Source of the DNA: Halorubrum yunnanense
GTDB lineage: Archaea; Halobacteriota; Halobacteria; Halobacteriales; Haloferacaceae
Assembly (NCBI RefSeq): GCF_026586675.1
Contig: NZ_JAODIX010000028.1
Location: forward strand, 66,876 to 130,875
Length of the DNA: 64,000 nt
Direction: 5' to 3'
Positions 37,285 to 42,312 of the stretch are shown one piece after another; within the stretch, counting starts at the first letter, position 1; the number at the start of each line of letters is the position of its first letter. A program made the position numbers and the translations under genes. The notes below the pieces were generated by a model. The model worked only from the letters and a program-made list of their open reading frames with translations, was not told where the DNA came from and did no database searches.

Positions 37285-37300
37285 TGATGGGCGCTGCAGG
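37285..37300. other. attL, left attachment repeat
   Basis: TGATGGGCGCTGCAGG, identical to 42235-42250. It is a detached copy of the tRNA-Arg 3' end (13 nt of tRNA plus 3 nt beyond) and marks the left border of the element. Confidence 0.9.
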
Positions 37301-37386
37301 GTAGCGCTCACGGCTTAAGAAAATTGGTGATTCGCTGAACGGGTGTCGAAGGCCCCGCCTTGGTGTGGTTCGAGATCGATCGACCC

Positions 37387-38397
37387 ATGGAACTCGAACC
37401 AATCGACCCCGACACGGCGCTCGAGTTGTACATCGCGGAGAAAGAGACCTCGGTTGCGGACTCGACGGTGGCTTCACACAAGTCACGTCTGAGTTTTCTG
37501 CTCAGGTGGTGTGAGGAACGCGACATCGAGAACCTGAACGAGCTGACCGGCCGGCGGCTCCAAGAGTTCCGGCTTTGGCGGCGCAACGTCGGCGACCTCA
37601 CGAAGGTGAGCGAGAAGACGCAGATGGACACGCTACGCGTGTTCGTTAGATGGCTGGAGTCCATCGACGCCGTCGAGTAGGACCTCCACAAGAAGGTCCG
37701 CTCACCCGATATCACGCCCAGAGAGAACAGTCGTGACGTGATGCTCGAGACCGACGACGCCGAAGCGATGCTGGCATACCTGGAGCGCTACGAGTACGCT
37801 TCGCTCCGCCACGTGACCGCGACACTCCTGTGGCACACGATGCTCCGGATGGGCTCGCTACGAGCCCTTGACCTCAAGGACTACGACCCGGAAGAGCAGT
37901 CACTCCGGGTTCAGCATCGACCTGACACCGACAGGCCACTCAAGAACAAGCGGGAAGGCGAACGGATCATCGCCGTCTCGAACGAAGTCTGTCTCGTCCT
38001 CGACGACTGGATCCGCGAGCAGCGGCTCGACGTCACGGACGACTACGGCCGAAACCCGCTCCTCTCGACGACTCGCGGACGGGCTGGTAAGTCGACGATC
38101 CGAAGCTACTGCTATCAGATAACGCGTCCCTGTGAGTACGGGCAAGAGTGTCCGCACGGCCGCGACGAGAGCGAGTCTGAGGCGAGAGAGCGGGACCACG
38201 CTTCGAAATGTCCCTCGAGTGTGAGCCCACGTCCCTTCCGCCGTGGAGCGATCACACACTACCTACAGAGTGACGTGCCGGAGACGGTGGTCGGCGACCG
38301 AGCGAACGTGACACCCGACGTCATCGACCAACACTACGACCAGCGGTCACAGAAGGAGAAGATGGAACAACGGAGGGGGTATCTCGACGATATCTGA
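37387..38397 (+). pseudogene. Tyrosine recombinase/integrase, interrupted by an in-frame TAG
   Basis: One frame encodes a haloarchaeal XerC/D-like integrase of about 336 residues, broken by TAG at 37678-37680 (codon 98), after the SAM-like N-terminal arm (residues 1-97). The catalytic domain follows in the same frame: box I Arg in HTMLRMGSLRALDL, the RRG of box II in SPRPFRRGAITHYL, and a Tyr in DQHYDQRS. The box II His of the usual HxxR is Arg here, a second lesion. ATG at 37738 could restart the catalytic part alone. It lies just inside attL, so it is the element's own integrase, probably dead. Confidence 0.85.
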
Positions 38398-38580
38398 ACT
38401 CTCCTCAAAACAGGGACTGAGGGAGCCCATTTTCCGACTCAAATAGCAGTAGTTGAGATTGGTGGCCTCAATGCATACGCTTCTCGAACTCCTTCGCGAT
38501 GGACAGTGATTCACCTTCAGCAATTTCGGAGCTTTCGTTTCTAACACTCTTCACAGCGGATGACGTTCCTCCTTTCAACG

Positions 38581-38952
38581 ATGTCCATCGACCGAGACAC
38601 ATTCGAGAACACGGACGAGGACGAGCTCGCGGATCTTTCGGTCCCTGATCAGGTCCTCGGGTTTCTCGCCGCCAACGAGCATCGGGCGTTCAAGGCTCGC
38701 GAAATCGCTTCTCAGATCGGCGCTGACGAGGGGGCAGTGAGCACTGCGCTCTCACGGTTAAAGGACCGTAACTTGGTCGAACACAAGGCAACGTACTGGG
38801 CCGTGACTGACGACGCCGAGCGACTCGACGGGTATAGCGGCTACGAACGGGCGACCGATCTGTTCAACGAGCAACTCGGTGACGAAGACACGGAGTCGTG
38901 GCGCGAACATGCACCCAGTGAGCCACACCCGAGCGTGGAGAACGAGCAGTGA
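38581..38952 (+). CDS. MarR-like winged-helix regulator of the element
   Basis: A 123-residue protein with a winged helix at about 18-75 (VPDQVLGFLAANEHRAFKAR then a GAVSTALSRLKDRNLVEHK recognition helix and wing). The acidic tail contains a YSGYERATDLFNEQLG helix. Its stop overlaps the GTG start of the PemK-like frame as GTGA, so the two were co-translated, and it may act as the antitoxin or autorepressor of that pair. ATG at 38581 is preferred to the 38560 ATG because it begins the conserved domain more closely. Confidence 0.78.
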   Translation: MSIDRDTFENTDEDELADLSVPDQVLGFLAANEHRAFKAREIASQIGADEGAVSTALSRLKDRNLVEHKATYWAVTDDAERLDGYSGYERATDLFNEQLGDEDTESWREHAPSEPHPSVENEQ

Positions 38953-39302
38953 CTGACGAGAAAGCGACCCCGATTTTTGAGCGGGGCGACGTCGTCTACG
39001 GTGATGACCCGTTCAAAGGCGAGGAAGATGCCCGACCGTGGCTCACTCTCTCGAATCACGACGACCGATCATTCCACGGCGAGCAGTATATCGCGCTGAC
39101 GTTGACGACGAAATCCTAGATGGACGGCCTCATCGATATTCCAGAAGAGAAATGGCTGCGTGGTGGGACGCCCGACGAGAGTCGAATCGTCCCATGGGGC
39201 GTCCAATCGATCGACCACGAGGATATCGACTTCTGGCAGGGACAGGTAAAAAGCGAGATTGTCGACGAAGCGGTCGCTGCCCTCGCCGAAGAGTTGCAGT
39301 AG
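38949..39302 (+). pseudogene. PemK/MazF-like toxin frame, interrupted by TAG
   Basis: A GTG-started frame of 118 codons broken by TAG at 39117-39119 (codon 57). The first half has FERGDVVYGDDPFKGE and RPWLTLSNHDD, as in the PemK/MazF beta-barrel; the second half, MDGLIDIPEEKW through DIDFWQGQVKSEI, continues the same protein. The interrupted codon lies between TTKS and MDGL, where a Trp (TGG) is plausible, so a single G-to-A change could explain it. ATG at 39120 directly follows the stop and could restart the second half. The toxin assignment is tentative. Confidence 0.6.
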
Positions 39303-39659
39303 CTGATCTGTACGAGAACAACCGGAATCTACAGGCGAAACAGGCCGAGTGCCTCGGGGCTTGACCCCGAGATATTCTACGCTCTGAACGGCCTCCAGTT
39401 CGACTACGACCGGACAATAAAAGAGACTCTGAAGGCACTCGCAACCGACGAGGCGAATGTCGATGACGAGGACGTGATTACGCATCTAAGAGCGAATGCG
39501 GAGCCGCTTGCGCCAGAATACGAAGTGACGATCCATCTCTGGCTGTCGCGTATCGACGGCACAGCCCAGTTCTCTGGGCCACGAGAGTACGAAGAGACAC
39601 ATGAAAACCCATCTAACGAACCGAACGGTTCTGACCATGACCCCCATGGGGAGAGCTAA
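39299..39659 (+). pseudogene. Hypothetical protein of the cassette, frameshifted
   Basis: The first 19 codons read ADLYENNRNLQAKQAECLG and hit TGA at 39362. One frame over, GLDPEIFYALNGLQFDYDRT continues to the stop at 39657-39659. Removing one G from the GGGG run at 39356-39359 joins both into one frame of about 120 codons. No clean start codon remains; GTG at 39474 could make a 61-residue fragment. It has no recognised domain, with a helical, acidic middle and a disordered tail. Likely an accessory gene of the winged-helix/PemK cassette. Confidence 0.55.
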
Positions 39660-39661
39660 GA

Positions 39662-39799
39662 ATGACTGCCGAAGGTGACCATCCCGAGATCCCCGATGAG
39701 ATGTCTCCCGAGGAGGCGCGGCAGTATCTCATTCGGTTCCTCGGACGGCAGGACCTCGACGAACACGAGGAGATCCACGACGAACTCGCGACCGAATAG
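39662..39799 (+). CDS. 45-residue acidic hypothetical protein
   Basis: A short, very acidic protein starting ATG two bases after the preceding stop and ending TAG at 39797-39799. It reads as two helices: SPEEARQYLIRFLGRQ and DEHEEIHDELATE. The tight spacing and haloarchaeal composition support it as the last gene of the four-gene cassette. Function unknown. Confidence 0.6.
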   Translation: MTAEGDHPEIPDEMSPEEARQYLIRFLGRQDLDEHEEIHDELATE

Positions 39800-40113
39800 G
39801 ACGCAATCCGACGCTGACTGCTTGTAGCGTTCACCGAACCATCACAGATCAGATACGGTACGGGGGCGTCTATGCCTGTGAGATTAAAATCAGAACACGA
39901 CGATTAGTGCCCCCTTCGGTTGACTCAGATCGATATCGGGTGCGACACTCCCAACAGTGGAATGATATCCAAAAACCGCGCTTAACAGCGTCCATGCCGG
40001 ATCGAAGGTTATTATGAAAGTTGCGCTGTTTCACTGCCTGAACGAAGAGCATTATCTGCAGGTGCAAATTTGAGCGGAACATATAATATCAATCTGATTT
40101 TAATTATGAATAT
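39800..40113. other. AT-rich gap before the pseudokinase gene
   Basis: This 314-bp stretch is markedly AT-rich for the window. It holds TATA-like boxes near 40080-40090 (ACATATAATATC) and 40098-40108 (TTTTAATTATG) that suit the gene starting at 40114. A 19-codon frame at 40014-40073 looks accidental. No gene is supported. Confidence 0.5.
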
Positions 40114-41589
40114 ATGGATTCGAATGGCACCCGCTGTGCGGTCGCCAATCTAGTCCCCCGTCGACCCCCTCTGGAACTCATCAAGCGAGACGGTGTCTGG
40201 GCTGTTCGCGAGTATTATGACTTGGGCGAGCAACCGGAACAAGGTGTCACTCGGTTCAGCACACACGCAAAACGGACCGACGCCATGCGAGTTGGGCAAG
40301 AACGAATGGAGGAACGACAGCACCCCTTTCTACTCCGGTGGGAAAGTCAGAACAACGTTGGTGGGATGTACTGGAATCAAGAGTTTGAGACGTTGTCCGT
40401 GCGGTTCAGTGAGCTGCTCAGTAGCTGGACGGTGAAAGCGGAGCCGGACGGCATTGTGCTCTCGGTGAACAGTTCTGATTCAGAGGCGCTCTCAACGAGC
40501 AAACAGATGCTGGAGGAGTACAATTTCAAGCGAGTGGTGTGCTACTCAACATCCGGTGATAAGCGAGTCGCGCACAAACACCGATTCGTGCGGAACGAGA
40601 TTGCCGACTACGGCGTACGGTTCAACAGAGAACAGATACCGAAGTCCGCCGAGACGCCGGCTGAGTCCTCCGACACCGACACCAACCAGCCAGCAACGTC
40701 CGGAGACGTGGCGATCACCGAGGATGACGGAGGAGACGATGACGAACAGACACGGGATGTAACAGGAGTCCACAGCTCGTTCGTGGCAACCGTTCCGGAC
40801 CTGACGGAGCTTCGAGAGATTGATACTGACGGCGTCGCTCACGTGTATGCGGTGCCGTGGGACGACACGACGGCCCGTGCCTTGATTTTGAGCCCGGAGT
40901 ACGCGGACGAACAGCAAGCAGTGAACACGTTCGCCACAGTAGTGTCTGATTGGCTCGCGCTGGCCACACACGACAACGTCGTGAAGGTGTTTGAGAGCGA
41001 CGCGGATCCGGGAACGTGGATAATCTACGACGCTGACTACCCGCGCTTGTCGACAGTCGTGGATGATCTCTCCGTTGTAGAGCAGATGAGCGTTCTCTTG
41101 CAGTTGGGTGATATCGCTACTGTCGCACAGCGAGAAGGAATCCATAGTACGGGACTAACCCCGCGTCGTGTCTGCGTCACTAAAGACAGTTCATCCGGAG
41201 CAAAGATGAGTTCGAACGACACGGCTCTTGAGGTGAAACTGACCGGATTAGGGCTGCGTGACCGTGTTTCCAGAGCGGTTGGGGATAGCGATCCGACGCG
41301 GTTTACTCCGCCAGAACTGCTCAACGGCGGAACGGTGCAGCCGACGACTCCCGTCTACCGGCTCGGCGCAATCGCGTACTATTTTCTCACGGGCAGCCCC
41401 CCCTACTACGCCTGCTCCCCAACTGCGGGCTCACTCTCAGAAGCTTCTATTACTCCTCCCAATGCGATCACGGATATCCCGATTCGTGTGAGTCAGTGTA
41501 TAATGCAGGCATTACACGAGAACCCACGCCAACGATACCAGACCGGCAAGACGTTCGTCAGAGAACTCATAAATCTTGTAGAACAATAG
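40114..41589 (+). CDS. Novel N-terminal domain fused to a protein-kinase-like (pseudokinase) domain
   Basis: A 491-residue protein. Residues 1-165 form an unrecognised domain (RWESQNNVGGMYWNQEFETL); 170-215 is an acidic linker; about 220-491 has the protein kinase fold. C-lobe landmarks align but every catalytic residue is gone. The HxDLKPxN loop reads IHSTGLTPRRV (from H344), so Asp, Lys and Asn are lost. DFG reads GLG in KLTGLGLRD. The P+1 region is RFTPPELL, and helix F is VYRLGAIAYYFLTGSPPYY. No Gly-rich loop or VAIK Lys is clear. Codon use is less GC-rich than the host's. Likely a pseudokinase acting by binding. Confidence 0.75.
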   Translation: MDSNGTRCAVANLVPRRPPLELIKRDGVWAVREYYDLGEQPEQGVTRFSTHAKRTDAMRVGQERMEERQHPFLLRWESQNNVGGMYWNQEFETLSVRFSELLSSWTVKAEPDGIVLSVNSSDSEALSTSKQMLEEYNFKRVVCYSTSGDKRVAHKHRFVRNEIADYGVRFNREQIPKSAETPAESSDTDTNQPATSGDVAITEDDGGDDDEQTRDVTGVHSSFVATVPDLTELREIDTDGVAHVYAVPWDDTTARALILSPEYADEQQAVNTFATVVSDWLALATHDNVVKVFESDADPGTWIIYDADYPRLSTVVDDLSVVEQMSVLLQLGDIATVAQREGIHSTGLTPRRVCVTKDSSSGAKMSSNDTALEVKLTGLGLRDRVSRAVGDSDPTRFTPPELLNGGTVQPTTPVYRLGAIAYYFLTGSPPYYACSPTAGSLSEASITPPNAITDIPIRVSQCIMQALHENPRQRYQTGKTFVRELINLVEQ

Positions 41590-41704
41590 CCTATCCTACC
41601 CAGAGAGAACCCGTTACAATTGAATCAGTGGTATTGTTCCTGAGACAACAGCACGTCATCGAACACGTCTCACGCCTTCTATACCGTGGTTTTGATCATG
41701 TCGT

Positions 41705-42031
41705 TTAGACATTATAGTAGATTGGCCTTCTCGAAATGGAGGAATGATACTGCTGCTCTGAGAGTACATCTTTAAATCCGCGGAGGGTGCGGGCGCCGAC
41801 GGTGTTTCCAGTAGCATATTGTTTCGCTTGTACGCCGAGCCGTGCGTGAAACAATTCTCTATCGATGACGGCGTGAATATCGATTCCACCGTCGCCACGG
41901 AACGGCGTTAATTCGAGTTCACGAGTCGGCTTTGCACGCTCTATCACCATTTTACAGAGTTGCTTGAACTGCTCGTGGTCGATCTGTAGCCCCTTACCGA
42001 GCAGTTCCTCTTTCGCCGTCGATGCTTTCAT
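41705..42031 (-). pseudogene. Truncated Mrr-type restriction endonuclease
   Basis: A 108-residue frame with the Mrr/PD-(D/E)xK core: FKQLCKMVIERAKPTRELEL helix, then FRGDGGIDIHAV with the catalytic Asp, and GVQAKQYATG with the Q-x-K pair, followed by the TLRGFKDVLSEQQYH helix. The protein stops where the GTFITTS-type strand and distal helix of Mrr domains should follow, so the C-terminal third is lost. It is convergent with the pseudokinase gene (115 bp) and the last gene of the element. Active-site residues remain but the fold is probably incomplete. Confidence 0.72.
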
Positions 42032-42234
42032 TCAAGATCGACGTTTGCACCGCTGGACAAAAACCCTCCTGCCAGAGCAACCGGTACGTTACCCCGACTC
42101 GGTCACGTGTATTTCATGAACCGCACGAAGGCGGCGACCCCCGTCACGCTACATGACGAACTCAAACTCGTCACTGGGGGGTTGGATTATATACACCCGG
42201 CTGCCGTCATGCCAATTTGCCCCGTCAGAAATCC

Positions 42235-42250
42235 TGATGGGCGCTGCAGG
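42235..42250. other. attR, right attachment repeat inside tRNA-Arg
   Basis: TGATGGGCGCTGCAGG, identical to 37285-37300. Bases 42238-42250 are the 3' 13 nt of the tRNA-Arg gene (acceptor strand and part of the T stem). Confidence 0.9.
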
Positions 42251-42312
42251 ATTTGAACCCGCGACAGCTTGGTCCGAAGCCAAGCACTCTATCCAGACTG
42301 AGCTAAGCGCCC
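42238..42312 (-). tRNA. tRNA-Arg (TCG)
   Basis: A 75-nt tRNA. Acceptor GGGCGCT pairs AGCGCCC, anticodon stem CTTGG/CCAAG encloses loop CTTCGGA (anticodon TCG at 42275-42277), and the T arm is GCGGG-TTCAAAT-CCTGC; discriminator A. No intron. Its 3' end is the integration site of the adjacent element, and the gene remains complete. Confidence 0.96.

Follow-up and report, generated by a model that had tools for sequence, protein, structure and literature searches.

The window, meaning the whole analysed stretch of 64,000 nucleotides, belongs to contig C38 of a haloarchaeal genome of 3.17 Mb. Among its genes is one for a kinase-like protein, the frame of which runs uninterrupted from the ATG at 40114 to the stop codon at 41587-41589. 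The gene and its parts are as follows:

40114-41589, forward strand: pseudokinase gene, 491 amino acids, an open frame aligned with 13 full-length relatives
40156-40632, forward strand: N-terminal domain, about residues 15-173, without a Pfam or PDB match
40633-40785, forward strand: acidic low-complexity linker, residues 174-224, evident from the sequence, gapped and unconserved in the family alignment
40786-41586, forward strand: pseudokinase domain, residues 225-491, from the family profile against PknB (E 1e-25)
40882-40884, forward strand: Leu257 at the position of the beta3 (VAIK) Lys of PknB, from profile alignment and motif survey
41152-41169, forward strand: catalytic loop, with Gly347 for the HRD Asp, Thr349 for the Lys, and Arg352 for the Asn, from profile alignment and motif survey
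41245-41247, forward strand: Gly378 at the position of the DFG Asp, from profile alignment and motif survey

Searched alone, the window sequence gave only C-lobe matches in Pfam, below the cut-off (PF07714, E 0.009; PF00069, E 0.018), and its whole-protein matches in NCBIfam and PADLOC were confined to the kinase part. A profile built from 13 family members, compared with solved kinases, matched PknB of M. tuberculosis at E 1e-25 over profile positions 45-272 of 275, that is, over the whole kinase domain save the first strands. Because the alignment covers almost the entire domain at this E value, the kinase assignment of the C-terminal domain, as judged by profile comparison, is far beyond chance. 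The AlphaFold model of the domain, built from two sequences, had a pLDDT of 38, too low a confidence to be of use. PknB-type bacterial Ser/Thr kinases (Hanks type; PDB 3ori and 1mru) share with the window protein the APE Glu (Glu401), helix F, and the C-lobe Arg (Arg474), but the window protein lacks the catalytic Lys, Asp, and Asn and the DFG Asp and has no PASTA or membrane region. An earlier note, made from the letters of the DNA, had described a pseudokinase that keeps its C-lobe landmarks, lacks the catalytic Asp, Lys, and Asn, the DFG Asp, and an obvious nucleotide Lys, and is fused to an unrecognised N-terminal domain. This description is borne out by the Pfam C-lobe matches and the retained Glu and Arg, by the replacements listed above, which leave none of the residues of an active Ser/Thr kinase (beta3 Lys, HRD Asp, loop Asn, and DFG Asp), and by the unmatched N-terminal domain.

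Relatives were sought in 392 genomes of the order. The 13 full-length ones are from several genera of other haloarchaea and are 28-41% identical to the window protein. The full catalytic set is missing in all 14 family members according to the alignment and motif survey: the HRD Asp is retained by L035 and L037 only, the DFG Asp by L041 and L047 only, the catalytic-loop Asn by L041-L046, and the beta3 Lys by none. The earlier note had named near relatives with an unbroken HRD/DFG set as the sign of a copy that is simply decayed; such homologues were sought and not found. Pairs of relatives were used for dN/dS, the window copy having no close relative, and the close pairs gave 0.17-0.24 over the whole gene and 0.18-0.29 when only the pseudokinase part was compared; purifying selection in these pairs acts on both domains. 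A more distant pair (L042/L044) gave 0.42. Since the full set is missing from all 14 members and dN/dS in close pairs is this low, a kinase fold predicted to be non-catalytic is kept by selection in the family; a catalytic set missing from relatives that are still under selection is what marks a pseudokinase. The window protein is a member of a conserved haloarchaeal pseudokinase family. Two copies are broken: L048 (in G321) is frameshifted, and L054 (in G387) has its middle deleted so that the N-terminal domain runs into the last residues. The family is also rare (18/392 genomes), and for both reasons the gene is dispensable in places.

The N-terminal domain had been said to match nothing over its 165 residues, and this holds for the libraries searched: Pfam gave no match for the N-terminal ~165 residues, and the PDB gave none at E < 0.1, the best being E 0.17. 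A single-sequence AlphaFold model had a pLDDT of 39.8, also too low to be of use. The residues conserved in the family alignment are W76, W87, N88, E92, K139, and H156-R157-F158. The idea that the domain consists of two DUF2188-like repeats was rejected, as the relatives have no DUF2188 and repeat 1 matches repeat 2 with only 12% probability. The domain profile matches 18/392 haloarchaeal genomes of the order and no additional genome among 295 sampled from the phylum. It occurs in three architectures: N-terminal domain with pseudokinase, N-terminal domain alone, and intact kinase with N-terminal domain. Stand-alone genes are found in G168 and G364, and in both genomes the domain also lies at the C-terminal end of a kinase with intact motifs (VAVK, HLDLKPEN, and DWG; PF00069, E 7e-27). 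Because it is also found alone and at the end of an intact kinase, the domain is part of a Ser/Thr phospho-signalling setting, and both dead and intact kinases can bear it. The gene for this intact kinase shares an operon with genes for a coiled-coil protein, an IetA-like AAA ATPase, and a third protein, and G051 has a related cluster that encodes both a PP2C phosphatase and a kinase. As a separate observation, a cluster of a coiled-coil protein, an IetA-like AAA ATPase, an unknown protein, and a Hanks kinase recurs at L136:4268-11772 and L051:4471-8623, with PP2C in L136 only. The coiled-coil/AAA operon of the g10 kinase was considered as a partner of the pseudokinase and set aside, as the coiled-coil gene is missing from every genome tested that has a full-length pseudokinase.

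The kinase-domain tree comprised 69 rows, is unrooted, and included 55 non-family kinase-like domains, nearly all chosen by similarity to the window protein and therefore a biased sample; 15 of these possess the full set of Asp, Lys, Asn, and DFG Asp, and the remaining 40 lack it. In this tree, the window family forms one clade (100/99) nested in a 28-row haloarchaeal clade (100/99), all 28 domains of which are predicted to be dead, and all 15 intact domains fall outside. The larger clade includes the kinase group of the FtsZl1 operons: the sisters L090-L092, L093, L023, and L096 are from clusters that encode a tubulin-like protein of ~1050 amino acids (PF13809). Such clusters are of the same type as the FtsZl1 locus with three kinase genes described in Halorhabdus utahensis by Makarova and Koonin in 2010, and in the portion of that paper considered here, these kinases are not called inactive (PMC2875224). 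The FtsZl1-operon kinase-like genes are among the nearest tree sisters of the window family and are predicted to be dead by the same motifs, but FtsZl1 shares their operon and their attached regions are different ones, whereas the window family is solitary and carries the N-terminal domain. No FtsZl1 gene was seen beside family members in the neighbourhoods of the relatives, and none was found in the window genome; full-length FtsZl1 is missing from most carriers of the family, and co-occurrence of the two was rejected, FtsZl1 being present in some carriers only.

Two side observations belong here. The kinase-like genes of the FtsZl1 operons (loci L130, G075:C1:2066000-2085999; L132-L133, G215:C42; L134, G068:C7) are published as kinases, and the catalytic residues are missing in the members examined (L023, L090-L093, and L096). 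Haloarchaea also have another, distinct group of pseudokinases, with HGGLDP-like loops, DN or VN replacing the start of DFG, and, in some members, HEAT repeats; none of them retains the catalytic Asp (L027, L028, L030, L032-L034, L098, L099, L101, L104, L105, L107, L110, L112, L113, L115, L119, L120, L125, and L127).

The window copy of the gene sits on a decayed element of 4.97 kb (37285-42250), bracketed by a 16-bp direct repeat and composed of the following features besides the pseudokinase gene:

37285-37300, unstranded: left attachment repeat TGATGGGCGCTGCAGG, 16 bp, direct repeat
37363-38397, forward strand: tyrosine integrase with an in-frame TAG at 37678-37680; uninterrupted 344-amino-acid copies in sister elements
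38560-38952, forward strand: winged-helix (MarR_2-like) protein, 130 amino acids (PF12802, E 5e-6)
38949-39302, forward strand: pair of small ORFs split by an in-frame TAG at 39117-39119, MazF/PemK-like by eye only
41705-42031, reverse strand: truncated Mrr-type restriction endonuclease (Mrr_cat), 108 amino acids against 345 in sister elements (PF04471, E 9.6e-11)
42235-42250, unstranded: right attachment repeat TGATGGGCGCTGCAGG, direct repeat, overlapping the 3' end of the tRNA-Arg gene
42238-42312, reverse strand: tRNA-Arg (TCG), the integration site

The first fragment of the small ORF pair had no Pfam match. The plain reading of the two TAG codons is decay. A 44-bp stretch at 39328-39371, of which many genomes of the genus have copies at 88-96%, nearly always with the same end base, looks like an IS200/IS605-type end. 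The G+C content of the element is 0.56 against 0.65-0.67 in the flanks, and this, together with the repeats, the overlap with tRNA-Arg, and the integrase, upholds the proposal of an integrated element; the nuclease fragment noticed beside the pseudokinase proved to be the truncated Mrr_cat protein. Copies of the integrase (up to 84% identity) and of the Mrr region (85-91%) are found elsewhere in the genus, whereas the pseudokinase stretch has no DNA match in 53 genomes of the genus and the N-terminal domain was not found in the sampled members of the genus. Sister elements (L169-L172), including a second, larger copy in the window's own genome (L169), have the same integrase (84% identical) and the same end sequences at tRNA-Arg. 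Between them, they carry an intact integrase, a full Mrr-type nuclease, a D12 adenine methyltransferase, a Cdc6-like ATPase, a DUF4268 protein that matches the candidate defence family PDC-S11 (E 2e-103), and a McrB-like AAA_5 protein. As the integrase and Mrr region recur, the pseudokinase does not, and the cargo of the sisters varies, the window element belongs, in reduced form, to a family of elements whose cargo is exchangeable and mainly of the defence type. The pseudokinase gene arrived on this mobile element and is a foreign addition to the genome.

Elsewhere, the relatives are solitary chromosomal genes. Their neighbours, compared by clustering rather than by full annotation, vary between genera, and no recurring nuclease or defence gene was found beside family members across genera; the search for homologues always next to nucleases, which the earlier note had proposed, therefore came out negative. 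The window copy is the only member on a defence-type element, and L043 lies near IS200/IS605-type genes. An NYN nuclease that lies close to family members in one genus and to a stand-alone N-terminal-domain gene was rejected as a partner: it is single-copy in 26/27 haloarchaeal genomes and, in most carriers, distant from the pseudokinase. Viral contigs and phages contained no homologue, and plasmids contained distant kinases only.

On balance, the window protein is probably a non-catalytic protein of the Hanks fold with a regulatory or adaptor role in the Ser/Thr phospho-signalling of haloarchaea. Its N-terminal domain would recognise a partner or ligand; the pseudokinase domain, itself transferring no phosphate, would relay this through contact with a second protein, which is most likely either a phosphorylated target or an active kinase. 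The lack of activity, the partners bound by the two domains, and the direction of regulation are what we infer. Because its haloarchaeal relatives are dead likewise and are kept by selection, the gene is most likely not a broken one but encodes a functional signalling component without enzymatic activity. The adaptor model is weakened by the rarity of the family and its broken copies (L048 and L054), and no partner gene travels with it between genera. In eukaryotes and a few bacteria, pseudokinases are known to act as scaffolds and switches. A precedent is MviN of M. tuberculosis, a dead kinase that serves as a recruiting scaffold and belongs to ActPs3, one of the bacterial pseudokinase families (ActPs1-3, GLW, CP1, DYD, and DLHK) treated in a review restricted to bacteria (PMC12599244). 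Compared by the text of that review, these families resemble the window protein in their degraded VAIK, HRD, and DFG motifs and attached domains, but the window protein is archaeal and its N-terminal domain has no Pfam name.

The setting of the window copy gives some force to a role in defence or addiction, in which the N-terminal domain would sense infection and the pseudokinase domain would recruit an anti-virus effector. Since the sister elements carry a Mrr-type nuclease, a D12 methyltransferase, the DUF4268/PDC-S11 protein, and the McrB-like protein there, the tRNA-Arg slot is used for defence cargo, and the best single-sequence matches of the window protein are defence kinases with a common kinase fold, namely BREX PglW (1e-11), MADS MAD6 (2e-7), and PD-T4-6 (3e-12). 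However, the scores are small fractions of the curated family cut-offs (43 bits against 990 over ~1390 positions for PglW and 30 against 460 over 612 positions for MAD6) and reflect the common fold. The kinase domain of PD-T4-6 has intact catalytic residues, which the window protein lacks, as it does the partner genes of these systems. The solitary chromosomal relatives and the viral, phage, and plasmid searches also speak against defence, and on the element itself, the nuclease is truncated and the methyltransferase is absent. The sensor or adaptor in defence proposed earlier thus fails for the family, whereas for the window copy it is possible and, owing to the element, a real rival, even if clearly unlikely.

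Somewhat unlikely, yet compatible with the adaptor reading for the family, is that the gene functions in its chromosomal home lineages and merely hitch-hikes here on a decaying element, idle in this host. The TAG codons in the integrase and the small ORF, the truncated Mrr gene, and the lack of a DNA match to the pseudokinase stretch in 53 genomes of the genus and of the N-terminal domain in its sampled members agree with this. Against it stands the pseudokinase gene itself, which alone among the long ORFs of the element has kept its full length (491 amino acids, like its relatives, with invariant positions kept). Some pseudokinases elsewhere keep unusual catalytic activity, and a rearranged active site might carry out phosphotransfer or another nucleotide-dependent reaction in the window protein, as two members keep the loop Asp and two the DFG Asp. 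However, no catalytic residue is conserved family-wide at the loop or DFG and the beta3 Lys is lost in 14/14, which makes an enzyme, as judged by sequence, very improbable. That a former kinase is being lost is suggested by the decay of the element itself but is hardly credible and already largely refuted: a decayed single copy was rejected on the grounds of the family-wide loss, the all-dead clade, and the purifying selection in close relatives.

The literature search found no paper on archaeal pseudokinases, which appear to be hardly described, and the family is new as far as libraries and papers were searched, although its general kind is already known. As a tentative proposal, to which we give somewhat less than an even chance, haloarchaea may run a large undescribed layer of pseudokinase signalling: a whole clade of predicted non-phosphorylating proteins with varied attached domains, the FtsZl1-operon "kinases" included, of which the window protein would be one branch, its new N-terminal domain being able to join dead and intact kinases alike and to pass from species to species with mobile elements. 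The kinase-like genes of the haloarchaeal FtsZl1 operons may accordingly not be kinases. A defined family, with its conserved N-terminal domain, its intact-kinase counterpart, and its dead sister clade, provides concrete proteins for asking whether archaea signal with dead kinases.
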